From a virus, in the IMG/VR virus record IMGVR_UViG_3300021599_003226, positions 1 to 26,223 of that record: a stretch of DNA of 26,223 nucleotides. One strand, given 5' to 3'. Position numbers and translations under genes: made by a program. Positions 1,047-26,223 of the stretch are shown one piece after another. The notes below the pieces were generated by a model. That model made no database searches. It was not told the origin of the DNA and saw only the letters and a list, made by a program, of their open reading frames with translations. The number at the start of each line of letters is the position of its first letter. Position 1 is the first letter of the stretch.

Positions 1047-1757
1047 ATGCTAAGTAGTTTCTTAGAAAAAAAGAGTTTCTTTATGACAACTGAAAACAAC
1101 TGGACCCAGAAAAGAAAACCTAAAAATCCTATTAAATTCAAGATCACTCTAAACGACGAACAGAAAGAAGCAAAAAGAATTATTCTAGAAAATCCTGTAA
1201 ATGTTCTTAAGGGAGCAGCAGGATCTGGTAAGACACTTTTGGCTGTTCAGATAGCTTTAGACTTGTTATTTACTAGAGAGGTAGAAAGAATTGTAATCAC
1301 CAGACCAACTGTAGCCAAGGAGGATATAGGTTTTTTGCCCGGCGATTTAAAGGAAAAAATGGATCCGTGGTTGGCTCCAATTTATTCAAATTTAGAGATG
1401 CTATACGAAAAGGAGAAAATCCAAAAACTCCTAGCTGAAGGGATAATTGAAATATTGCCATTTCCTTTCATGAGAGGTAGAACCCTTGTTAATTCATGTG
1501 TGGTAGTTGATGAAGCACAAAACGTCACAATGAACCAGATGGAAATGGTTCTAGGTAGATTAGGAGTCGGTTCTAAGATCATGATTTGTGGGGACACTTC
1601 TCAGATAGATCTTAAAAACAAGAAGGAATCGGGATTAGATTTCATGAACACCATCTCTGCAAGAGTAGAAGGAGTTAAGGTTATTTCACTCAAGCAAAAC
1701 CATAGACATCCAATCGTTCCTTCTATCTTAGACGTTTACAGGGAGTATACAGTTTAA
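1047..1757 (+). CDS. phoH: PhoH-family ATPase
   Basis: This is a PhoH-like P-loop NTPase, a family close to the ATPase half of superfamily 1 helicases and widespread in marine and large phages. The Walker A motif GAAGSGKT is at residues 56-63, the Walker B region CVVVDEAQN at 151-159, and the GDTSQ sensor-like motif at 182-186. ITRPTV (84-89) and the closing QNHRHP stretch are also typical. At 236 residues it is essentially the ATPase domain alone. A second in-frame ATG at 1083 (Met13) would give MTTENNW at the N-terminus and is at least as likely as the upstream start, since neither has a clear ribosome binding site. It is one of only two plus-strand genes. Its stop (1755-1757) overlaps the stop of the 2,256-aa gene on the other strand (1754-1756). 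The cellular role of phage PhoH remains unsettled; phosphate-starvation or RNA-related roles have been proposed for the family. Confidence 0.93.
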   Translation: MLSSFLEKKSFFMTTENNWTQKRKPKNPIKFKITLNDEQKEAKRIILENPVNVLKGAAGSGKTLLAVQIALDLLFTREVERIVITRPTVAKEDIGFLPGDLKEKMDPWLAPIYSNLEMLYEKEKIQKLLAEGIIEILPFPFMRGRTLVNSCVVVDEAQNVTMNQMEMVLGRLGVGSKIMICGDTSQIDLKNKKESGLDFMNTISARVEGVKVISLKQNHRHPIVPSILDVYREYTV

Positions 1758-11340: not shown

Positions 11341-12315
11341 ATGGGCATACACAATTTTATAGAGGAAACTAAAAAAAGAGATTTTAAAGGGCAAGCTTTT
11401 GGACAAGTAATATCAATTATTAAAAGGGATCCAAATTTATTAGAAGAAACAATAAAGGAAACGGAATTTTTGGATCAAGTATATCAGGATATAAGTTTAT
11501 CACAAAGATTCTATCATTTGTGGTTTAACATAATGGACATCGAAAAATGCCCATATTGTGATGAACACAAAAAATTCTCATTTACTAATAAATTTTCAAT
11601 AAACCAATATAACAAAAGAGACGCTAATTATTGTGGAACTTGCTGTAAAGATCAATGTAATAAAAAATATAATTTGGATAAAGGGAGAGAAAAATTAATT
11701 GAAAAATACGGGACTAAAAATGTATGGGAAATAGAAGGATATAGAGAAAAATTCGAGAAAAATAATATAGAAAAATATGGGGCAAAATATTACACATCAA
11801 CGGAAGAATTTAAGTTTAAAACTCAGAAAACATTCGAAAAGAAATACGGGGTGCACCCAACAAAATTAGAATCAACTCAGGATAAAATTAAAAAAACAAA
11901 TGTAGAAAAATATGGGTATTCTCATAGACTAAAAGATCCAATAAAATATGAGGAATATTCTAGGAAATCGTTTCAATACAAAGATTATATCTTTCAGTCA
12001 GGAAAGAAAGTAAGGATACAAGGATATGAGAATTTAGCTATAGATCTATTATTAAAAATACACGATGAAGCAAATATAATAATAGAGGATTCTGAGATTG
12101 CTCAAGAAACTGGAAAAATAGAGTATAGTAAAGATAGAATCTATTTTCCTGACATCTTTATAAAAACGGAAAATAAGATTATAGAGGTAAAATCTGAATA
12201 TACCTATGAATGTAATTTAACAGAAAATCTAGAAAAAAAGGATGCTGTATTAGCAAAAAAAATCAATTTTGAATTCTGGATCTTCGACGCTAAAGGGAAT
12301 TTGAGAATTATATAA
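11341..12315 (+). CDS. Probable homing-type PD-(D/E)xK nuclease with KYG repeats (324 aa)
   Basis: A free-standing nuclease-like gene on the plus strand inside a minus-strand tail operon. A helical N-terminus leads to a cysteine set fit for zinc binding: C70-x2-C73 and C98-x2-C101, with further Cys at 102 and 106. Four KYG motifs follow at residues 122-124, 145-147, 168-170 and 190-192, spaced 22-23 residues apart; this DNA-binding-type repeat is common in phage homing nucleases. The C-terminal domain has a GYE motif (228-230), then FPD with D271 and the IEVKS element with E282 and K284, the PD-(D/E)xK catalytic pattern. The coding sequence is visibly richer in A and in AAA/AAT codons than its neighbours, which suggests separate ancestry. 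It ends 19 bases from the convergent stop of the next gene. Target site and activity are unknown. Confidence 0.8.
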   Translation: MGIHNFIEETKKRDFKGQAFGQVISIIKRDPNLLEETIKETEFLDQVYQDISLSQRFYHLWFNIMDIEKCPYCDEHKKFSFTNKFSINQYNKRDANYCGTCCKDQCNKKYNLDKGREKLIEKYGTKNVWEIEGYREKFEKNNIEKYGAKYYTSTEEFKFKTQKTFEKKYGVHPTKLESTQDKIKKTNVEKYGYSHRLKDPIKYEEYSRKSFQYKDYIFQSGKKVRIQGYENLAIDLLLKIHDEANIIIEDSEIAQETGKIEYSKDRIYFPDIFIKTENKIIEVKSEYTYECNLTENLEKKDAVLAKKINFEFWIFDAKGNLRII

Positions 12316-15835: not shown

Positions 15836-18800
15836 TTAATATTTTTTTACATTAAATGCTTTTTGTAATTCGGAAGGGAGTTCAGGAATTGGATAAACTG
15901 GATCAGCTGCACCTAAGAAGAATTTAAATAGTCCAGAAACATCAGCTGCACTTCTTAAAAATTCATCGATATAGACAACATAATAAGCGTTTTTAAGGCT
16001 CATTCTTCTCCATGAGGGATGGTCATCTGATAAGATGATTGGATTAATTAAGTTTATAACATTTCTTCCTAATAATACTGTAAGTGGCCATGGAATTTTG
16101 GTAAGTATATTCGAAGACAATTCAACTGCAGGATTTACTATATTTCCAAGTAGTGGGGATTTTGGCAAACCCTTAAAGTATTTCCAGAATAAGCTGTAAA
16201 CTATTCTTGCAGGAGGGGGTGCACCCATTCCAATTAGGGCTTGTTCTATCATGTCGGTAGGTCGAGCTTTTGGTATAACTGGAATTTGTGTCAGATTTAA
16301 AAAATCAGGGATATTTGGAGACTCTGGATTTAAACTCTCTCTAACTAAATTCCTAGCTATTTTCTGAATATCCTGCGGATTTAAATTTGTAAACTTAGGA
16401 GAATCTATATTATCAATTTCAGGAAGCAGTTGCTCTAATAAACCTCCATCTAATAAGGATGTTACTGTTTCAATAATAAAATTCTTAATTATAGTACCAG
16501 GTATAGTTACCTGAATTATTCCACCTAAACCTTGTGTTTGTGAAACTTGATCTTGTTTGGGAGGGAAAACTGTAGGGATTTCAAAAGCTGAGATAGCATT
16601 ACCAAAACCTCCATTAAGTGATTCCAAGCAACAATACGGACCTTCGGGATGCGGAAAATCAGAAACTAAAGGTTCTTCAAGGTCCAGAGGTCTTTCGGGA
16701 TCAAATGGACCCCTTCTAGAAAGTCCTAATTTTTTCGATATTAATTTTTTTAAATCCTTAACTCTTATAACTAGAATTGGATTTTCTCCATCATACCTAA
16801 CATATCTTGAGAAGTCCTCTCTTGAATATATTATTTTAGACATACCCTCCATAATCCTTAGGTACATCGCAGTAAGAAGAGGATTTTTAATTTTAATAAT
16901 TTTGAGAGGAACAGGTGCAATATTTGAAACTTGAACAGGAGGAAACACAAAAGGTCCTTGTTTTTCACAATCATCAATTATTGAAAATGCTCCCTTTCTA
17001 ACTTTTTTAATTACCGAGAATTTGTTTCCCTTTAGTATAATATGGGTTATTGCAAGAGATGCTGATCTAATTTCTTTAACTAGATCTTCAAATTCTTCCT
17101 TTTCCATAGTTCTTGGATCCTTATCTAATCTCAAGAAAATTTTATTCGGATTCGAAACGTTTAAGTTGTCCAAAATATATTTGGGTGGAGAAGGTACTTT
17201 GATTAATTTAAGAACCTCCCTCATTTCGTCTTTGAAGTTAATACTGTCCCCACACTTTAACGGTACAAAACTAGCTTTCATATCCTTAAGAATTCTCAAA
17301 GACTTAACTATTCCAGGAACGTCGATTTTAAGCTTGTCTTTATCCTGTGGGTAATAAATGGATTTAGGATTAGGTATCCCTGTTTTTAAATAATCCTTTA
17401 TTACAGTTTTAAGAGTTTCCTTCCTTTGTGCAATTATTAATTCCAACTGCTCTCTTTCTTCATCCACGTTTGGCTGAGGAACGTCCAGCAGTGCTGCTTT
17501 TTTGTCATACTCTTTCCTTTTTGATAAAATCGAATTCTTAAGGTCTATTTCTCTTTGTTGTGCTTCCCTTAAAGCTTCAATATTACCAGGAGGAGGAACA
17601 CTGTCAAAAATTTTTGTCAGATTAGTTTGAAGATCACTAAGAATCCTATTTGGAGAATCCACGTCATCTTGTCCAAAACCTGGGAGTGGAATAAGTTTAT
17701 CAGGAATACCAAAAGAAAGAATCTGCTTGATTTTTTCAAGAGGGTCTTTAAGTTCAGGATCAGATTTTCTTGGGATAAATCTTGGACCTCTGATTCCTGT
17801 TAAGAATAAAGAACTTCCAGTTATAAACTCCTTTAAGTACACTAGAGGAGTAGGCATAAAACCTCCAATAAATGGAATGAAAATTACGATTACTCCTAAA
17901 TTAAGTGGAAGTGGAATAATAATAGGATCTACTATTGTCCATATCATAGGCAAAGGGATCCTAATAAAAGGCTGTCCGTCCACAGGATTAGGTACAGGAA
18001 TAGGAATAAAAGCAGGTGGTAAATAACCAACCGGCCAATATTTTAAACCAAGTCTCACTGATGGTCCTCCAGAAAGAAAGAAACTAGTTTTTTCAATTGG
18101 AGGCAATCCATTAGGATACGGCAGTAACCCAACTTTAGTTACATCTTTACAAAACTGTTTCCACCAACATCTTTGAAATATAGTTGGACAGTCCGAACTA
18201 GGTGGGGACGATGTTAGATAATTAGCATATTTAAAATCCGATCCAGCTGGACCACAGCATTGCGGTGGACAATTAACTGAATTTCCGTTATCAACGTTTC
18301 CTCCATCGCCATCTCCAGCACCACCAGCACCCGCACATTTAAGATCAGAAAACTCCTTATCCAAAGCTTCAGGAGTAAGGGATTGCTCGTTTTCAGTTCT
18401 TTTCTGTGCTGCAATGAGCATCAGTTCTTCAATTTGCTCTATCTTTTCTTTGATGTTAGTAAAATTTTCAAATATTCTAATTCCGATAACATCTAATAAA
18501 GGCAAAGTGTTTCCTAGTGCATTTCCAGCCTGTCTTGCTAATCCTTTTATTTCATTGAGTTTAGGCTCGACATAAACCTGTTTGTTTTGTTGGTATTTAG
18601 CATCCCATTTAGGTTTAAAGTTTCCATAGAAATCTGTGAAAACTTCATTAGGTTCGCCATCTGCAGTAAAAGTACCAGGTCTAAGCTTGCTTGGATTCCT
18701 AGCATCGTTATCTCCTCTTTCCTGTGGAGAAAAGAAAAGCCAATTTGAGGCAGATTTTTCAATAAGCTCACCATAAAGAATTCCCCTGTCCTCGTTAATC

Positions 18801-21085
18801 TGGTTTATGATAGTCTGTTTGGATTTATTCGTATTCAATACATCTTCAAAAAATCCGAAAAAATCTCCAACATCAGGAAATCCAGTTTTAAGGTTCACAA
18901 TTTCTAAGAATTGGTAAGAAGCCAAATATTCCGTGGAATATTCAGCTAATAAACCACCATTACCTGCGTGTTCGTTTCCTAGTTTGATTTTTTCTTGGTC
19001 TGGTTCAGGAACTTCCTGCAAAGGATTTGATGGCTCCCCAGTCATAGAAATTTTACCAGGTTTTTTGACATTCTTATAAGGTAAAGGATCTCCTAGATCA
19101 GACATGAAAGACACCTTAAATTGAAGTTCAGCCCTGGCCCTGTTAAATTCTGGTCTTGCAAATCGAACAGAAAATTCTTGGATCTTGTTTATAAAAGGGT
19201 ATCCATCTGTGGCATATTCCTCGTTACTGCTAGAATATGCAGAGAAAACCCTCTCATTACGTTCAAGTTGAGCACTAGATTGTCCATATAGATCTCCTGA
19301 ATCACCTGATGTTCCTATGAGCGCAGCTTCTATATCATTAAGGTCTAAATCTCTTCCAGTTCTTGATTGTAGTGTTTCGATATTAGCATTTTTAAGTGCT
19401 GTGAGTTCATTTTTTTGGTTTATTAAAGAGTCAACAAAATCTTTTTTAACCAGTATGTTCCTAATCGATTCAATATTAGTTTCAAAAGAAGCTAATCCTT
19501 CGTCCAATCGATAAGCTTGTTTTGATTGATCAAAAGCAACCGGAGAGTTTCCTGCTTCGATATTTTCTTTAAATAAGTCCTTTAGGTCTTTCCTTTCAAG
19601 TTCAGTATCAGCAAAGGAAAGGTCGAACAGTTTTCGCGTGAAAACTGGATTATTAGAAAGGAAGAGATTATAAACGTTTTCTATATCAGTAACTTCTTGC
19701 TGTACTTGTTGTTCCAGAATTGGTTCTTGGTCAGTAAGGGTTAAAATTGAAATTCCAAGTTCGTAATCACTAAGAGATCCTCCATTCGAAAACGGAAATC
19801 TTAATTGCCAGGCATCTTGCAAAGACTTTTGGTATTCGAATATGATTTCATAGTGATAAAGAATTTCCTCTAGAAATCTTTCTATAACTTGCCAACGAGC
19901 TGTTTCCTTATTTTTTTTATCTATTTTGTTAGACTTTTCTAATGCAGAGTCTATACATGCTTGGATTGCATCAACATCTACATTAGCTGCTGGTGGATCC
20001 TCCTGATCAACATTGGATCCTGTCAAGTCATTGGATCCTGTCAAGTCATTTATTCCAGAGAAGTCAAAGGCAGGTGGATCGCAGAATTCTCCAGATATCT
20101 CTTCAACATCAGATTTGGTTGATATGATGTCTCCAGTAATTGGATCTTCAGGAAGGCCTGGATCGCAATCATCATTAATAATAGGATCATCTCCATCCGG
20201 AAAAAAATTAGCATCATATCCATCTTGGCGATCTGATGCGAATCTTCCAAGTCCTGAAAAGTTTCCATCACTGTCGAATTCCAAACCTGATCGTTCCTTT
20301 GAATCATTTTCTGGATCATTCTCTGAATCATTATCAGCATCTCCGTTTAAATCCAGATCTTTAAAATCACATTTTTTAGAATTTTTAAGCTGATCTCCTA
20401 GAACTCTATTAATATCACTGAGGGCTTGGTCATTTGTAATCGAAGGTCCTCCAAGTTTAACATGGACAACTCTTTTACCTGACATTATAAATTCCAAAGG
20501 AATTTTGTATCCAAGAATATTGAGCTCTCTTTTTTTCTTTGCACCTGAATTTGAGGGTTTTCCAAGTACTAGAGGATCAAGATTGTCGAACAAAGATTCG
20601 TTTGTCTTCTCTAAAAATTTGGGGTCCTTTTGTCCAAGAAATTTCACAATACCTGTTGAAGAAATATCCCGTTCTTTTTTGAAAGTTGGAATATTTGTTT
20701 GCACGCCCAAATCATCCACTATAAAGGTCTTTTCGTCTAAACTACCAGAGTTTTTGAGTTCTTCGTATAAGTCCCTGTTTTCAGTCTTTAATGATTCCAA
20801 CAGAATTTGAGAATATAAAGAATCACCTTCATATTTACACGCCAGGTCTTCTATTTTAGAAAGAGGAATAGGTGGTGGTCCTGGCTCAAGACTTTTAATA
20901 AGTTCCTCTACTTCTTTTTCAGATTTTTCAAGTTCTTTATTGAATCCTTCCTCTGATTGTAAATCCTCGTAAGGTAAATCAATTTGTTGACCAGTAATTG
21001 TTTGTACTATTTGCTCAGTAGTAAGATTTTCAAAATCTTGACCAAGTAAATCATCTATTCTTGATTCTATACTTTCAGATGCCAT
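15836..21085 (-). CDS. Very large tail/baseplate structural protein (1,749 aa)
   Basis: A giant protein of no recognised family, 2 bases downstream of the spike gene. Visible parts in order: an acidic helical N-terminus (1-120); an Asp/Asn-rich stretch at about 240-330 with DxDxDG-like calcium-loop patterns (DLDLNGDADND, FDSDGNFSGLG); an exact DLTGSN duplication near 347-358; helical regions (370-700); a Gly/Cys-rich patch at about 918-981 (CPPQCCGP, then RCWWKQFC); a hydrophobic proline-rich stretch at about 1020-1090 (repeated P-I-P, I-P-L-P, F-I-P turns); a charged coiled coil at about 1165-1235; and a mixed C-terminal part. It is the only gene here with a full AGGAGG ribosome binding site, 6 bases before the ATG and built from the last codons of the spike gene. 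Position suggests a tail-tip, hub-associated or length-measuring role, but no motif decides. Confidence 0.75.
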   Translation of the reverse strand: MASESIESRIDDLLGQDFENLTTEQIVQTITGQQIDLPYEDLQSEEGFNKELEKSEKEVEELIKSLEPGPPPIPLSKIEDLACKYEGDSLYSQILLESLKTENRDLYEELKNSGSLDEKTFIVDDLGVQTNIPTFKKERDISSTGIVKFLGQKDPKFLEKTNESLFDNLDPLVLGKPSNSGAKKKRELNILGYKIPLEFIMSGKRVVHVKLGGPSITNDQALSDINRVLGDQLKNSKKCDFKDLDLNGDADNDSENDPENDSKERSGLEFDSDGNFSGLGRFASDRQDGYDANFFPDGDDPIINDDCDPGLPEDPITGDIISTKSDVEEISGEFCDPPAFDFSGINDLTGSNDLTGSNVDQEDPPAANVDVDAIQACIDSALEKSNKIDKKNKETARWQVIERFLEEILYHYEIIFEYQKSLQDAWQLRFPFSNGGSLSDYELGISILTLTDQEPILEQQVQQEVTDIENVYNLFLSNNPVFTRKLFDLSFADTELERKDLKDLFKENIEAGNSPVAFDQSKQAYRLDEGLASFETNIESIRNILVKKDFVDSLINQKNELTALKNANIETLQSRTGRDLDLNDIEAALIGTSGDSGDLYGQSSAQLERNERVFSAYSSSNEEYATDGYPFINKIQEFSVRFARPEFNRARAELQFKVSFMSDLGDPLPYKNVKKPGKISMTGEPSNPLQEVPEPDQEKIKLGNEHAGNGGLLAEYSTEYLASYQFLEIVNLKTGFPDVGDFFGFFEDVLNTNKSKQTIINQINEDRGILYGELIEKSASNWLFFSPQERGDNDARNPSKLRPGTFTADGEPNEVFTDFYGNFKPKWDAKYQQNKQVYVEPKLNEIKGLARQAGNALGNTLPLLDVIGIRIFENFTNIKEKIEQIEELMLIAAQKRTENEQSLTPEALDKEFSDLKCAGAGGAGDGDGGNVDNGNSVNCPPQCCGPAGSDFKYANYLTSSPPSSDCPTIFQRCWWKQFCKDVTKVGLLPYPNGLPPIEKTSFFLSGGPSVRLGLKYWPVGYLPPAFIPIPVPNPVDGQPFIRIPLPMIWTIVDPIIIPLPLNLGVIVIFIPFIGGFMPTPLVYLKEFITGSSLFLTGIRGPRFIPRKSDPELKDPLEKIKQILSFGIPDKLIPLPGFGQDDVDSPNRILSDLQTNLTKIFDSVPPPGNIEALREAQQREIDLKNSILSKRKEYDKKAALLDVPQPNVDEEREQLELIIAQRKETLKTVIKDYLKTGIPNPKSIYYPQDKDKLKIDVPGIVKSLRILKDMKASFVPLKCGDSINFKDEMREVLKLIKVPSPPKYILDNLNVSNPNKIFLRLDKDPRTMEKEEFEDLVKEIRSASLAITHIILKGNKFSVIKKVRKGAFSIIDDCEKQGPFVFPPVQVSNIAPVPLKIIKIKNPLLTAMYLRIMEGMSKIIYSREDFSRYVRYDGENPILVIRVKDLKKLISKKLGLSRRGPFDPERPLDLEEPLVSDFPHPEGPYCCLESLNGGFGNAISAFEIPTVFPPKQDQVSQTQGLGGIIQVTIPGTIIKNFIIETVTSLLDGGLLEQLLPEIDNIDSPKFTNLNPQDIQKIARNLVRESLNPESPNIPDFLNLTQIPVIPKARPTDMIEQALIGMGAPPPARIVYSLFWKYFKGLPKSPLLGNIVNPAVELSSNILTKIPWPLTVLLGRNVINLINPIILSDDHPSWRRMSLKNAYYVVYIDEFLRSAADVSGLFKFFLGAADPVYPIPELPSELQKAFNVKKY
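20011..20046. repeat. Exact 18-bp tandem duplication
   Basis: The 18-base unit CATTGGATCCTGTCAAGT occurs twice head to tail (20011-20028 and 20029-20046) and then begins a third time with CATT. It encodes a doubled DLTGSN in the disordered acidic part of the 1,749-aa protein. The exact identity points to a recent slippage duplication that keeps the frame. Confidence 0.9.
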
Positions 21086-21087
21086 TG

Positions 21088-21963
21088 TTATCCTCCTGTT
21101 GCTCCTGTTCCTCCAGTAGCAGAACTAGGTAAAGATACAGGTTGGCTATTTTGTGCTGGGACTGTAGGAAGGTCTGGTAAGTTTTCCCTTGTTACCCTTA
21201 CTGTCTGACTAGTTGCAAGCTGTTCAAAGCTTTGTGCTAATGTGGAACTTACACCAGGTGTTACTGGAAGTTTAGCATCTACTGCGATGGCTAACTTCTT
21301 CAGAAAATCCCAAAGAGGCTCAGCACAAATCGCTGAGAAAACCGGGGAATGTCCGAGGTTGGTAGTTTTTCCGTCCATCCAAACTTCCTCAGAAGAATGC
21401 TTAATTCTAGTAACTGCAGTATTCTCTATCTCTTGGTCAGCATACTTAGTGATTTTACCTCCTTTTAGCTCAATAGACGAAGTATCGTCCGCATGAGTGA
21501 TCAATATCGAGTTATCGTTTCGAATGATGATTTTGGACTCCTTTAGATCGATTACAAGACCTTTCTCTACAGTGTAATAAATTTTTAATCTCTCGATTCC
21601 ATCATAAATAAGGGAATGAGCTCCATCGTAACTTGCCCTGATTTCATCGATGAGATCTGGAGAAAGTTCCTGCACTGCTTTGTATTCTGGACTGTAATAG
21701 TTGCCATTATTGAATTGGACGTGTACAACTGAACCTAATTTAGGAACAGACATTCTTCCAGATCCTCCACCTAGACCATAACTCATATCAAATCTTTGGT
21801 GTGACCAGGGCAAATCCTCATCACCAACCCCATCATAAACTCCGAATATCCTAATTTTTGCTCTGCCTTTAAATTCTGGATCTTTGTTGTCAATTACAAC
21901 ACCTAGAAAGTGAGCAACTTCAATATTACTATCAATTAAATGTTCTCTTGATATCAGTGTCAT
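21088..21963 (-). CDS. Baseplate central spike protein, gp5-type OB-fold (291 aa)
   Basis: This protein corresponds to the membrane-piercing central spike of contractile tails (T4 gp5/VgrG/gpV group). The N-terminal OB domain spans about residues 15-100: FLGVVIDNKDPEFKGRAKIR, then LPWSH, then a Gly-rich loop GLGGGSG and VPKLGSVVHVQFNNGNYYSPEY, the common pattern of this fold. Residues about 125-200 form short beta repeats (LVIDLKESKIIIRND, SSIELKGGKITKY) likely to build the triple-stranded beta-prism. The C-terminal part (205-291) has one helix (LWDFLKKLAIAVDAKL) and a disordered tail ending in GGTGATGG. There is no lysozyme domain, unlike T4 gp5, so cell-wall cutting must come from another protein. 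It sits between the repeat protein and the 1,749-aa protein, close to the hub gene. Confidence 0.85.
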   Translation of the reverse strand: MTLISREHLIDSNIEVAHFLGVVIDNKDPEFKGRAKIRIFGVYDGVGDEDLPWSHQRFDMSYGLGGGSGRMSVPKLGSVVHVQFNNGNYYSPEYKAVQELSPDLIDEIRASYDGAHSLIYDGIERLKIYYTVEKGLVIDLKESKIIIRNDNSILITHADDTSSIELKGGKITKYADQEIENTAVTRIKHSSEEVWMDGKTTNLGHSPVFSAICAEPLWDFLKKLAIAVDAKLPVTPGVSSTLAQSFEQLATSQTVRVTRENLPDLPTVPAQNSQPVSLPSSATGGTGATGG

Positions 21964-21979
21964 ACTAAATTATAGAATT

Positions 21980-24937
21980 TTAAATGCTAGGGTTTTCATT
22001 GTTATTTGATTTAGGGTAAACTCTTCCAAGGTTTACTGGGGCTGAAGGAGGAACATTATATTCCGCGTTACCAAAAGCTCTTGGGTAAATTCTGTCAGAT
22101 CCTCCTAAGAGAGATCCAGGTACATTAGCGTAAACGTCCTCATTTGTTGGTGGATATTGTCTTCCTGGTGCAGAGAGCGATGATCCAGGTACTGTAGGGA
22201 ATTCATCGGGAGCTTTTGCTCCGGGATAAGTTCTTGCTGGTGCACCTAAATCTATTCCTGGAACAGTTGGATAGGAGTCATCGTTGACTGATTCGTACAC
22301 TCTTCCCAAACCTCCAAGATCCCGACCAGGAACCCCTGTGTATTCATCTTTTGGTGTGACTGGTTTGTATTCTCTGGTAGGTGCTCCTAAGTCTTTTCCA
22401 GGCACATCAGGATAAACATCACCATCTGGAGTTTTGTAAACTCTTGCTAGTGCACCAAGTTCCGAACCAGGTACGTTTTTGTATTCATCTTTAGGAGGAG
22501 GAGCATTATAAACCCTTTCAGTCCCTCCTAAATCAGGTCCAGGAACTCCCGGGTAAGCATCACCCTTAGGTTCATCATAAATTCTTCCCAGTGGACCTGA
22601 ATCTTTACCAGGAACTTCAGTGTACTCATCTTTTGGTGGAGGTACTTTATATTGCCTATCAGGTGCTCCCAAGTCGGGTCCAGGAACCCCTGGATATAAG
22701 TCACCAGTAGGCTCAGAATATACTCTATCAGGAACACCCAGATCTTTACCAGGTACTCCTTTGAACTCATCACCTGCAGGAGGTCCAGGATAGGCTCTTT
22801 CCGGTGCTCCAAGATCCGTGCCCGGGACATCCGGATAAACATCACCTTTTGGTTCTGTATAAGCTCTTAAAGGAACGCCTAAATCTGCACCGGGGACATC
22901 TGAATATTCATCATTCCCTTGTACATTTGGATAGAGTCTTTGAGGTGGTCCAAGATCAGATCCAGGTACATTATTATAAAGATCATCATTAAGAGTTGGA
23001 TAAACTCTTTGAGGAACACCAAGATCTGATCCAGGTACATCGCCATATTCATCAGAGTTTACTGGAGGATATTGTCTATCAGGAACCCCTAAATCGTTTC
23101 CAGGTACGTTTCCGTAAACATCAGAATTTATTGTTGGATAAACTCTCTGTGGAACTCCAAGATCTGGACCAGGAACGTTATTATATTCGTCTGTAGAGAC
23201 TGTTGGATATTGTCTTTCTGGAGCGCCTAAATCAGTTCCAGGAACGTTGTTGTAAACATCATCTTGAAGATTGGTTGTTCCTGCTCCTGAATTGGGTAAA
23301 ACATTTCCAAGATTTTGTCCAGCTTGTCCGTTAACATCAGGATACACATCCGAATTTATTGTTGGGTATTGTCTTTCTGTAGGACCTCCAAGTCCTCTAG
23401 CTTGTGGCGTGTTGTCCTGGAATGGGTTAGGAACTCCTGCTTGGATAGTGCTCACCAAGCTTTGAACACTGGATAAAGCTTGTCCTGCATTTACACCACC
23501 TAATCCGTAAATATTTCCAAGTAACGCTCCCTGAACGATGGATACACCTTGATTAGTTAAATCTGCAACAGTATTGTTAATAAAGTTAGATGCAAGTTCT
23601 GCAGCAAACTGTCCTGCATTTCCCCCGGGATCCACAAAAGCATCACCGAATCCAGTGCTGTTAGCGTAATCTGAAAAATTGTAATCTGACTTAGGGTTTT
23701 CCCAAAGATCAGAAATAACCATGCTTTTGATGTTATCGTTTTTCTGAATGACATCTGCTAACTGATTGAACTGAATTTTATGATCCCTTACTCTTCCCAC
23801 GTGTATCTTAAACTTTGTGGAGACTGATTGACCTCCTTTGTTGTCAATTGACGCATAAGAAGGAAATGTTTCATCGAAGTCAAATTCACACTGATCAAAT
23901 TGGTAAATGAAAGCATAAGGTCCTAAAGTATAAGATCCGAATTTGTCATTTCCCGGATCTTCGGCATTTGTAGATCTTTGTAAAAGTCCTTCTGTATTAT
24001 TCAACAAACCAGTTTGGCTATTAAAGCTATCTAAAAAGTTAGCTGCTTGTGCTACAGAAGGAATCTGGAAAGGGTTCAGAATATCGTTGATTCCATATGT
24101 GAGTTGAATATTTCTTATCTCAGTTACTATCAGCCACATTCTGAACTTTCTGAGATTCTCAGGGAGCATAACTCTGTGGTAAGTGTAGTCATAAATAGCC
24201 TTTCGATAAAGTTCTGAAAGACCAAATATTCTCATGTCGATTGATTCTAAACAATCTATGCTTAAAGTTCCTGCCCTTTTTGGAATACTTCCCTTTTTGT
24301 GGTAATTTTTGATATCAGTTTTTAAAAGCTGATCTAATCCACTAACATTTTGGAAGTAGTATGGACAATTTTTATTAACGAAATCTAATCCCCTTTTAAA
24401 AGCTTCAAGCATTTGCTGTCTTTTCTGAGATCTTTGATATAAAAATTGTTGTGCTCCCATATAGGCAAGAGGGGAGTTAGCGGGAAAGAATCCATAATTT
24501 GCTCTGCTGGGAATTTTTCCCTTTGATCCATAAAAATAATCTTGGGAAGTTCCAAATCCTGAATTTGTAAGATTTTGTATATCATTAGATATTCCGGTAA
24601 TATCTGAAGGATTCTTTCCACTTCTGAGTGCTTCTAATGTTCTTGCCTCAAGATCTCCTGCAGCCGCGTTAATGTTACCAACACCATTAGCTGAATAAGA
24701 TCTAAATAACGGGGAAGGGGCTAAAAAGGTTTCCTCGTCTATTAAGGAATTGTTCCCAAAGTCGAACATAAACTTGAAATAGATGTAGGTAGGATCTTCT
24801 TTCTTTCCGTGTTTCGTAGATGAAATTCCCTTCAGAAATTTCTCTCTCTGGAAATCTATTTTTCTGTTTAAGATATCTCCAGTAGGTAAAACGTTACCAG
24901 CTAATCCTGAACCAAAATCCGATATAAAATCTGCCAT
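21980..24937 (-). CDS. Tail-tube/baseplate-associated protein with a 17-copy proline-rich repeat (985 aa)
   Basis: Residues 1 to about 480 form a folded part with patterns seen in tube-to-baseplate adaptor proteins of large myophages: FRMWLIVTEIRNI near 255-275, then YQFDQCEFDFDETFPSY and FKIHVGRVRDHKIQFN near 340-395. The adaptor reading (analogous to T4 gp48/gp54) is inference. A Gly/Ala/Gln linker follows, then 17 tandem repeats at residues 565-962 with consensus VPGxDLGxPxRxYPxxxxDEYxx, and a short degenerate unit at the C-terminus. The repeat is rich in Pro, Gly, Asp and Tyr and probably extended. There is no Cys in the array, no signal peptide and no membrane segment. The gene lies between the hub gene (9-base gap) and the spike gene (16-base gap). 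Confidence 0.8.
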   Translation of the reverse strand: MADFISDFGSGLAGNVLPTGDILNRKIDFQREKFLKGISSTKHGKKEDPTYIYFKFMFDFGNNSLIDEETFLAPSPLFRSYSANGVGNINAAAGDLEARTLEALRSGKNPSDITGISNDIQNLTNSGFGTSQDYFYGSKGKIPSRANYGFFPANSPLAYMGAQQFLYQRSQKRQQMLEAFKRGLDFVNKNCPYYFQNVSGLDQLLKTDIKNYHKKGSIPKRAGTLSIDCLESIDMRIFGLSELYRKAIYDYTYHRVMLPENLRKFRMWLIVTEIRNIQLTYGINDILNPFQIPSVAQAANFLDSFNSQTGLLNNTEGLLQRSTNAEDPGNDKFGSYTLGPYAFIYQFDQCEFDFDETFPSYASIDNKGGQSVSTKFKIHVGRVRDHKIQFNQLADVIQKNDNIKSMVISDLWENPKSDYNFSDYANSTGFGDAFVDPGGNAGQFAAELASNFINNTVADLTNQGVSIVQGALLGNIYGLGGVNAGQALSSVQSLVSTIQAGVPNPFQDNTPQARGLGGPTERQYPTINSDVYPDVNGQAGQNLGNVLPNSGAGTTNLQDDVYNNVPGTDLGAPERQYPTVSTDEYNNVPGPDLGVPQRVYPTINSDVYGNVPGNDLGVPDRQYPPVNSDEYGDVPGSDLGVPQRVYPTLNDDLYNNVPGSDLGPPQRLYPNVQGNDEYSDVPGADLGVPLRAYTEPKGDVYPDVPGTDLGAPERAYPGPPAGDEFKGVPGKDLGVPDRVYSEPTGDLYPGVPGPDLGAPDRQYKVPPPKDEYTEVPGKDSGPLGRIYDEPKGDAYPGVPGPDLGGTERVYNAPPPKDEYKNVPGSELGALARVYKTPDGDVYPDVPGKDLGAPTREYKPVTPKDEYTGVPGRDLGGLGRVYESVNDDSYPTVPGIDLGAPARTYPGAKAPDEFPTVPGSSLSAPGRQYPPTNEDVYANVPGSLLGGSDRIYPRAFGNAEYNVPPSAPVNLGRVYPKSNNNENPSI
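22052..23245 (-). repeat. Tandem array of 17 protein-level repeats (23/24 residues)
   Basis: Within the 985-aa gene, 17 consecutive units begin with VPG and share DLG, a Pro, an Arg and a Tyr at fixed places. The first four units are 23 residues long. From the fifth onward the lengths alternate 24, 23, 24 and so on, giving a 47-residue (141-base) super-repeat. Odd units carry D/A-E-Y/F near the end; even units carry D followed by V, L, A or S and then Y. A degenerate unit lies before the array and another after it. The copies differ widely in DNA, so the array is old and held by selection rather than freshly duplicated. Confidence 0.95.
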
Positions 24938-24946
24938 TTCTTTCTT

Positions 24947-26223
24947 TTATTTTCCAAATATATCGCTCTTGATGCTTCCTATATCTTCCTGCAAAATCGA
25001 AGAAGCATTTTCTACAAGATCATTAAAGTTCGGATCATTCTCTTTAGGATTTAAAGGAGAAGGATCAGAAGCAATTCCAGGATTGAGTGACCATTGCTTT
25101 TTGCCTAAAAGCAAAGTTTGGTGCATTCCATCTTTTTTATTGTATTCAATAGTGAAACCAAGTACAACATAATTTCCTGACAAAAAAGTATTCGGTACTC
25201 TTTTATCTGGTGGTGGTGCTAATGAGGTTCCGTCACCACCTGCGGCAGTGTATTTTGAATCTCCGGAAATAGTGCTACTTCCCTCTTGAACTATATTAAC
25301 AGGAAACGTTTGTCCTCTATAAATAAATGGTGTCCAAGCTCTGTTCTTAACCTTAAGAAGAATTTTATAACTATCGTTCCTATTTAAGATATTCTGAACT
25401 TGTGCTTGCTGAAAATTTTCATGAACATTATCGAAATAAATTGTTCCAGCGTAAGTGTTTTTAACTTCCTCTTTATAAAGAGATTCACCTAGTCTTCCTT
25501 TGTTCAAAGCGTCTCTTGCCCCTAAATCTCTATTTGTAACAGACTCAATTTTATAGCTAACGAACTTATTTTTGGGTTTGTCAGATGTCAGATTGGAGTC
25601 GTAAAATTGAAGATTTTGAAAATATCCTATATCATTATTAATTTGTCCAGCATTGTGCTGTAATGACATTGCTGTGATAAATAAAGGGGATTTACTATAG
25701 CTCGTTTGGTTTGTTAATAGAATCGGAAACTCAACCTCAGCAGTTTCTGCACCAGGCGCTAAATCTGGAGTGTAGTCCGCTCCATAAGCCATTCTTATCG
25801 TTTCGATTGTGGAATTTTGTTCATCAAACTGTTTTTTTAAATTAACAAGATTCAAGTTGTAATATTGATCAATCCAACAATCAAAATAATCTTGTTCTCC
25901 TAACCAAGAACTATTGACAATGTGTTTTATTGCGTTTTCGTATTCAGTACTTGGAGAAATCCAAGTCATCGAATCATTTGTTTTTGGTTCATTAGAAGCG
26001 TATCCTAGATTTAATTCTTCAGCCATTTTAATTAAAACATCAGAACTTGTTCCTTTGTAAGCTGCAGAATTATGCCTATATAATTTAGGAATTCTAACTT
26101 CGCCCTTGACTGTATAAGTTTGGAATCTTCCAGTAGAGGGTTCAGAGTTATTTTCATCACTCACTGTGTTAGCTCTAGAAAAAGGGGAAATGACCTCAGT
26201 CACAATGAAGTCCATTCTTATAG
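24947..26223 (-). CDS. Baseplate hub protein, gp27/late-control-D-like, 5' end outside window
   Basis: At least 422 residues of a hub protein that would carry the spike. The region about 45-130 (counting from the ATG at 26215) has the hub pattern: YKGTSSDVLIKMAEELNLGY, followed by MTWISPSTEYENAIKHIV, then DYFDCWIDQYYNLNLVNL. It recalls T4 gp27 and related D-like proteins. Late parts include VKNRAWTPFIYRGQTFPVNI and VVLGFTIEYNKKDGMHQTLLL, matching the closing barrel domain. The frame stays open upstream of 26215 to the window edge, and the sequence at that ATG looks internal (no N-terminal domain before the TVKGEVRIP strand), so the true start is probably beyond the window. It is followed after 9 bases by the repeat-protein gene. 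Confidence 0.72.
   Translation of the reverse strand, partial: IRMDFIVTEVISPFSRANTVSDENNSEPSTGRFQTYTVKGEVRIPKLYRHNSAAYKGTSSDVLIKMAEELNLGYASNEPKTNDSMTWISPSTEYENAIKHIVNSSWLGEQDYFDCWIDQYYNLNLVNLKKQFDEQNSTIETIRMAYGADYTPDLAPGAETAEVEFPILLTNQTSYSKSPLFITAMSLQHNAGQINNDIGYFQNLQFYDSNLTSDKPKNKFVSYKIESVTNRDLGARDALNKGRLGESLYKEEVKNTYAGTIYFDNVHENFQQAQVQNILNRNDSYKILLKVKNRAWTPFIYRGQTFPVNIVQEGSSTISGDSKYTAAGGDGTSLAPPPDKRVPNTFLSGNYVVLGFTIEYNKKDGMHQTLLLGKKQWSLNPGIASDPSPLNPKENDPNFNDLVENASSILQEDIGSIKSDIFGK

Follow-up and report, generated by a model that had tools for sequence, protein, structure and literature searches.

A 23-residue tandem repeat, possibly forming a docking arm, on a baseplate-region protein of large uncultured phages

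Introduction

In phage T4, the proteins gp48 and gp54 sit at the junction of the baseplate and the tail tube (PMC3004832). Each is present in six copies, and each is a protein of 35–40 kDa as a whole. We know of no repeat arm on either. Tape measure proteins that carry tandem repeats of 11 residues have been described by Belcaid et al. (PMC3271669). Amino-acid tandem repeats of another kind occur in Borgs; these formed recently, nearly all of them are perfect in DNA sequence, and they are spread over many unrelated proteins (PMC9879509).

The protein described here is encoded in a stretch of viral DNA of 26,223 nt, the entire IMG/VR record IMGVR_UViG_3300021599_003226, which we call ‘the window’. 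Like the genes for gp48 and gp54, its gene belongs to a baseplate operon, with a hub-like and a gp5-like gene as neighbours, and a model of its N-terminal domain weakly matches tube and initiator folds. However, neither sequence comparison nor a PDB fold search gave it a significant match, and in its family the N-terminal domain alone (400–500 aa) is to be set against their 35–40 kDa. With the tape measure repeats it shares its nature as a phage tail protein, a conserved repeat and a variable copy number, but its units are 23 residues long, Pro/Gly-rich and joined to a tube-fold-like domain; the ‘mainly helical’ character of tape measure proteins is missing, the array being predicted, with low confidence, to be coil. 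As in Borgs, the repeats are in frame and give a region of disorder-like composition, but they are old (55–60% DNA identity between units) and confined to one family. Nor do they resemble elastin-like tandems of VPGXG pentapeptides: the period is 23, with one VPG per unit.

Large uncultured phages thus carry a repeat arm on one of their core baseplate proteins, and none was found in the cultured phages of INPHARED. Unit numbers form a natural series, zero, one and upward to about 51, which, together with the uniform and alternating states described below, provides a clean comparative system in which to ask what role regular, apparently unstructured repeats play in a contractile injection machine.

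The array gene and its operon

The window lies in the baseplate operon of a T4-like phage, with a gp6-like wedge protein and a gp5-like OB protein (both from PHROGs) and a small gp25-like protein (recognized by eye). An earlier note on this DNA, made from the sequence alone, had taken the array protein for one of a phage baseplate region, and this part of its reading is supported. The array gene, its parts and its nearest neighbours are as follows:

24947..26215, minus strand: hub-like protein (gp27-like by eye); its true start lies outside the window; 541 aa in locus L012
21980..24937, minus strand: array gene, 985 aa (from the ORF list); N-terminal tube-fold-like domain, linker and repeat array
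23504..24937, minus strand: N-terminal domain, aa 1–478 (from alignments), with a conserved LLGNIYG motif at its end
23246..23395, minus strand: two degenerate leading units, aa 515–564 (from the sequence), which homologues also have
about 22055..23245, minus strand: 17-unit array, aa 565–961; D-E-[YF] in the odd units and D-[VLAS]-Y in the even ones
21983..22054, minus strand: terminal half unit, NLGRVYPKS, kept near the C-terminus in most members of the window clade
21088..21963, minus strand: gp5-like OB-domain baseplate protein, phrog_430
15836..21085, minus strand: 1749-aa ‘slot’ protein; slot size ranges from 0 to 1776 aa in related phages

In order, the operon encodes an initiator-like protein (617 aa), a LysM-like protein (201 aa, by eye), the hub-like protein (541 aa), the array protein, the gp5-like protein, the slot protein, S1, proteins of about 468 aa and 276 aa, gp25 and gp6. 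This order is common to all clades examined, where flanks were read, and in every flank read the hub-like gene is the upstream neighbour of the array gene and the gp5-like gene follows it immediately downstream. Even the array-less loci L094 and L115 keep the first five genes, initiator-like through gp5-like. Related contigs encode, in addition, a head maturation protease and a major head protein (PHROGs), and a sheath protein and two tube paralogues (by eye).

The repeat-derived part of the 985-aa ORF, comprising the array, the degenerate units and the half unit, spans approximately 21980–23395. VPG occurs 17 times in the ORF, and all 17 units contain both VPG and R-x-Y, as the earlier note had stated. 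The fuller motif VPGxDLG, also ascribed to every unit, holds as far as VPG is concerned, but strict DLG is found in 13 of the 17, units 10, 12, 16 and 17 having KDSG, SELG, SSLS and SLLG instead. Just ahead of the closing Y/F, units 1 to 17 have, in turn, E,V,E,L,E,V,E,L,E,A,E,V,E,S,E,V,E: the reported alternation of odd E-Y/F and even V/L/A/S-Y endings is without exception. The chance of exact E/not-E alternation, given nine E among 17 units, is 1/24310 (calculated post hoc), and a permutation test on all aligned residues supports two alternating types, A and B (p=0.0026). Spacings between successive VPGs run 23,23,23,23,24,23,24,23,..., in keeping with the 24/23 alternation of lengths claimed from unit 5 onward, except that unit 17 has 23 residues and not 24. 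Proline makes up 17% of the array and glycine 13%; Cys, Trp, Met and His are absent.

Fold of the N-terminal domain

Sequence searches against PHROG, Pfam, NCBIfam and PDB gave no meaningful match to the array protein, and PDB sequence searches with the N-domain profiles, the array and the neighbouring proteins likewise gave none. An AlphaFold2 model of the full-length protein has a pLDDT of 40.7, with the array modelled as coil at about 35. The shorter homologue L094 gave a better model (pLDDT 55; N-domain core 70–93). When this model was compared with BFVD, the ten significant matches included unnamed proteins and the N-domain homologues of phages PAU and pT24; below them, with E values from 1e-3 to 0.2, came matches that included several tail tube proteins and the ‘baseplate tail tube initiator’ of phiAS4. 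A fold search of PDB with the N-domain model returned nothing significant (best E 0.15), with tube, initiator and Hcp entries among the top matches. On these models the N-domain may adopt a tube-like fold, and the position of the gene in the operon supports this.

A repeat family confined to one protein

A DNA pattern of two motifs spaced 69 bases apart, which matches the window seven times against none expected, finds the consensus in other phage genomes: at least 119 stretches of IMG/VR match, on contigs of up to 434 kb. Among the matches listed there are 117 ORFs, of which 85 have an intact start, and because all 85 of these carry the same N-domain, the array is the property of a single protein family. 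Among close relatives the same protein was found at 30 loci (19 distinct proteins), and a profile scan gave further ones. Twelve long contigs were examined for the motif, and in 11 it is confined to the array gene; the array-less contig G011 has two scattered matches. No INPHARED record matched the array, a search in which the low-complexity filter of BLAST may hide weak matches, and a search of bacterial genomes with the N-domain profile found no relative. The family is widespread in large uncultured phages; we found no description of it in the sources searched.

The basic repeat unit is 23 residues. Among the matches listed, close pairs of motifs are 23 residues apart in 432 of 496 cases and 24 in 35, a strictness that could come partly from duplication of whole units. 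Over 263 units there is hardly any variation at the positions of D, PG, DLG and Y, the G, R and second Y being preset by the search expression. Arrays among the matches listed have from 2 to about 51 units.

Uniform and alternating arrays

A tree of the N-domain divides the family into the window clade, in which units alternate, and a large sister clade, in which they are uniform. In the window clade the type A consensus is D-[VA]-Y-P-N-[VN]-P-G-S-D-L-G-L-P-D-R-Q-Y-P and that of type B is D-E-Y-N-N-V-P-G-S-D-L-G-V-P-G-R-V-Y-P. The distinguishing letters vary from phage to phage, but alternation is mostly kept (e.g. in L037, p=0.004); L087 is irregular. Sister-clade units (e.g. VPGxDLGVPDRVYPxPxGDVY) are 23 residues long, mostly in 5–11 copies, and do not alternate. 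The exceptions are L198 (28 motifs, p=0.003) and L163+L230 (51 motifs, p=0.0005); L171, with 15 motifs and also inside the sister clade, is without alternation. L163+L230 (IMGVR 3300010334_000030, 87530-107428), read across adjoining loci, is the largest array, in a protein of 1993 aa.

Of 24 members of the alternating clade, 20 have an odd number of units, as against 11 of 33 in the uniform clade; these are related sequences and not independent. This preponderance of odd lengths suggests that alternating-clade arrays change mostly by whole pairs, although such steps would also be expected from recombination between like units.

The earlier note had taken a 47-residue pair for the real unit. 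That view does not survive comparison with the sister clade, in which the same protein, in the same operon, carries uniform 23-residue units. Homologues that are more distant still carry just one seed unit or lack it. At larger evolutionary distance, then, there are proteins of the kind that the note itself had named as refuting its view: the two-step order is not the basis of the protein; judged by its distribution among these sequences, it is a clade-specific elaboration of the 23-residue unit.

Age of the array and selection upon it

The units of the window are well diverged at the DNA level, as had been noted: aligned copies are 60% identical within a type and 55% between types, and third-position identity, over shared 4-fold-type codons, is approximately 0.5. 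Most of units 1–12 are closest to the same-numbered unit of the sister phage L011. Between these two phages synonymous sites are near saturation, and dN/dS is approximately 0.14 for array units 1–12 and 0.11 for the motif core. The last units of the array have diverged much more than these. Since unit DNA is about 60% identical, most units match the same-position unit of L011, synonymous sites are near saturation and dN/dS is low, most of the array is old and constrained by purifying selection. That selection maintains the pattern, as the earlier note proposed, agrees with an alternation that is common to the window clade and has persisted while synonymous sites approached saturation. We reject recent homogenization of the array, since unit order is largely orthologous between the window and L011.

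Array-less relatives and the seed unit

Several phages share the N-domain only: Sphingomonas phage PAU (gp255), Tenacibaculum phages PTm1, PTm5 and pT24, Flavobacterium phage MaF61 and the Prevotella Lak phages. Their homologues are unnamed or hypothetical proteins and lack the repeat array. In PTm1 and pT24 a gp5-like gene lies immediately downstream, as in the window, and the PTm1 homologue has a single DLGNVY motif at its end. In L094, L095, L114 and L115 the N-domain is accompanied by roughly one seed unit, such as EDVYPNVPGTDL...DLGNIYK; the contig of L094 measures 374 kb and that of L115 482 kb. LGN[VI]Y also closes the N-domain in most cases. Because unit number varies from about 2 to about 51, and some relatives have one unit or none, the core function of the protein does not depend on the array.

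The homologue in the 735-kb phage LR756501 (L045, 7776-11417) has two different C-terminal arrays, one PHPPVSGTIDTSFK-like and the other TSVTTFADVQFAHASDLDGTRGW-like. They occupy the same place as the array of the window and are unrelated to its repeat. Since this homologue carries two different arrays, growth of repeats on the N-domain anchor may be a repeated event.

Possible functions of the array

Regular spacing, a near-invariant motif, a likely seed in relatives and strict attachment to one anchor make one reading the most likely: that the array protein is anchored where the baseplate hub joins the tail tube and that its array serves as an extended, multivalent docking arm, directed at a putative partner. 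We give this about an even chance. The N-terminal domain, tail-tube-like and placed like gp48 and gp54 of T4, would build the protein into the junction, presumably in several copies. The Pro/Gly-rich C-terminal arm, probably extended, would consist of 23-residue docking units (PGxDLGxPxRxYP...D-x-Y), all of which would recognize one type of site on a virion or assembly partner present in many copies, making of the arm a multivalent tether. The arm may have grown through tandem duplication of a single C-terminal seed, of the kind that persists in array-less jumbo phages; in the window clade, growth would have taken place mostly via A–B pairs, with both types specializing later.

Other functions can be imagined. 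The array might be an elastic or entropic leash, a spacer of P-G turns that links the hub to the wedge or the fibres during contraction and keeps its motifs for their turns and not for binding. The Pro/Gly-rich composition, the coil-only prediction and the VPG with which every unit starts suit such a spacer, yet conservation of Arg, Tyr, Asp and Leu-Gly exceeds what a spacer needs, the spacing is fixed and VPGXG pentapeptides are absent; we think it unlikely. It is quite unlikely, too, that the arms form a ladder or ruler, following the tube or sheath so that each ring, or every few rings, would be matched by one unit or A–B pair, helping to set or stabilize tail length, and with A and B facing two alternating environments. 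For this speak the strict 23/24 spacing, the mostly odd lengths in the alternating clade, the precedent of tape measure repeats (PMC3271669) and a place at the tube platform that corresponds to the one in T4 (PMC3004832); but sister phages manage with uniform arrays of mostly 5–11 units, unit number ranges from 2 to 51 among the matches listed, and it does not clearly track the length of the 1749-aa neighbour (Spearman 0.38, p=0.067), itself not proven to be a tape measure. A related and very doubtful idea is that of a second periodic scaffold in contractile tails, in which beaded arms from the tube-initiator ring lie against the tube or sheath, each subunit layer being paired with one unit or A–B pair. 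Were this true, some mechanical property of the tail would be set by array length, and two alternating sites would be marked by the A/B code.

It is very unlikely that the array grew by neutral, mutation-driven tandem expansion at a free C-terminus, in the manner of the Borg repeats. Copy number is highly variable, the composition is disorder-like, relatives contain a possible seed and LR756501 has unrelated arrays at the corresponding place, all of which such growth would explain. Against it, the DNA copies are old and diverged, their order is largely orthologous, dN/dS is low, and motif and spacing are kept across a family with very divergent N-domains; Borg repeats, by contrast, arose recently, and their DNA copies are perfect in nearly all cases (PMC9879509). 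Least probable of all is an adhesin or glycan-binding fringe around the tail tip that binds host surface polymers, with copy number and A/B types reflecting host surfaces. The motif is indeed aromatic and charged, copy number varies and the gene is in the baseplate region, but the core motif is conserved over very different phages (contigs of up to 434 kb), unlike host-range modules, and the array is never found on another protein among the intact-start ORFs of the matches listed.

Other features of the operon

Between the gp5-like gene and S1, the slot holds 0, 195, 474, 598, 910 or approximately 1570–1776 aa, while the other operon genes are constant (window, L198, L171, L191, L161 and L216). 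Recognizable slot-gene sequence is common only to the window clade and its sister. L198 has no slot gene, so the array protein can do without it as a partner.

A DUF7487 protein with zinc-finger-like cysteines is encoded at 11341-12315 (plus strand), between the 276-aa and gp25-like genes; because the gene is missing from the same place in G006, it is probably a mobile insertion. A PhoH-like ATPase gene (1047-1757, plus strand) lies on the opposite strand within the tail gene block, and G006 has an opposite-strand protein of similar size there. Collagen-like GxT / GATGATG tails occur on several structural proteins (the C-terminus of 21088-21963 in the window, G006:C1:41176-42081, and the 539- and 547-aa genes of G005), among them the gp5-like protein and two adjacent paralogues that are portal-like by eye.
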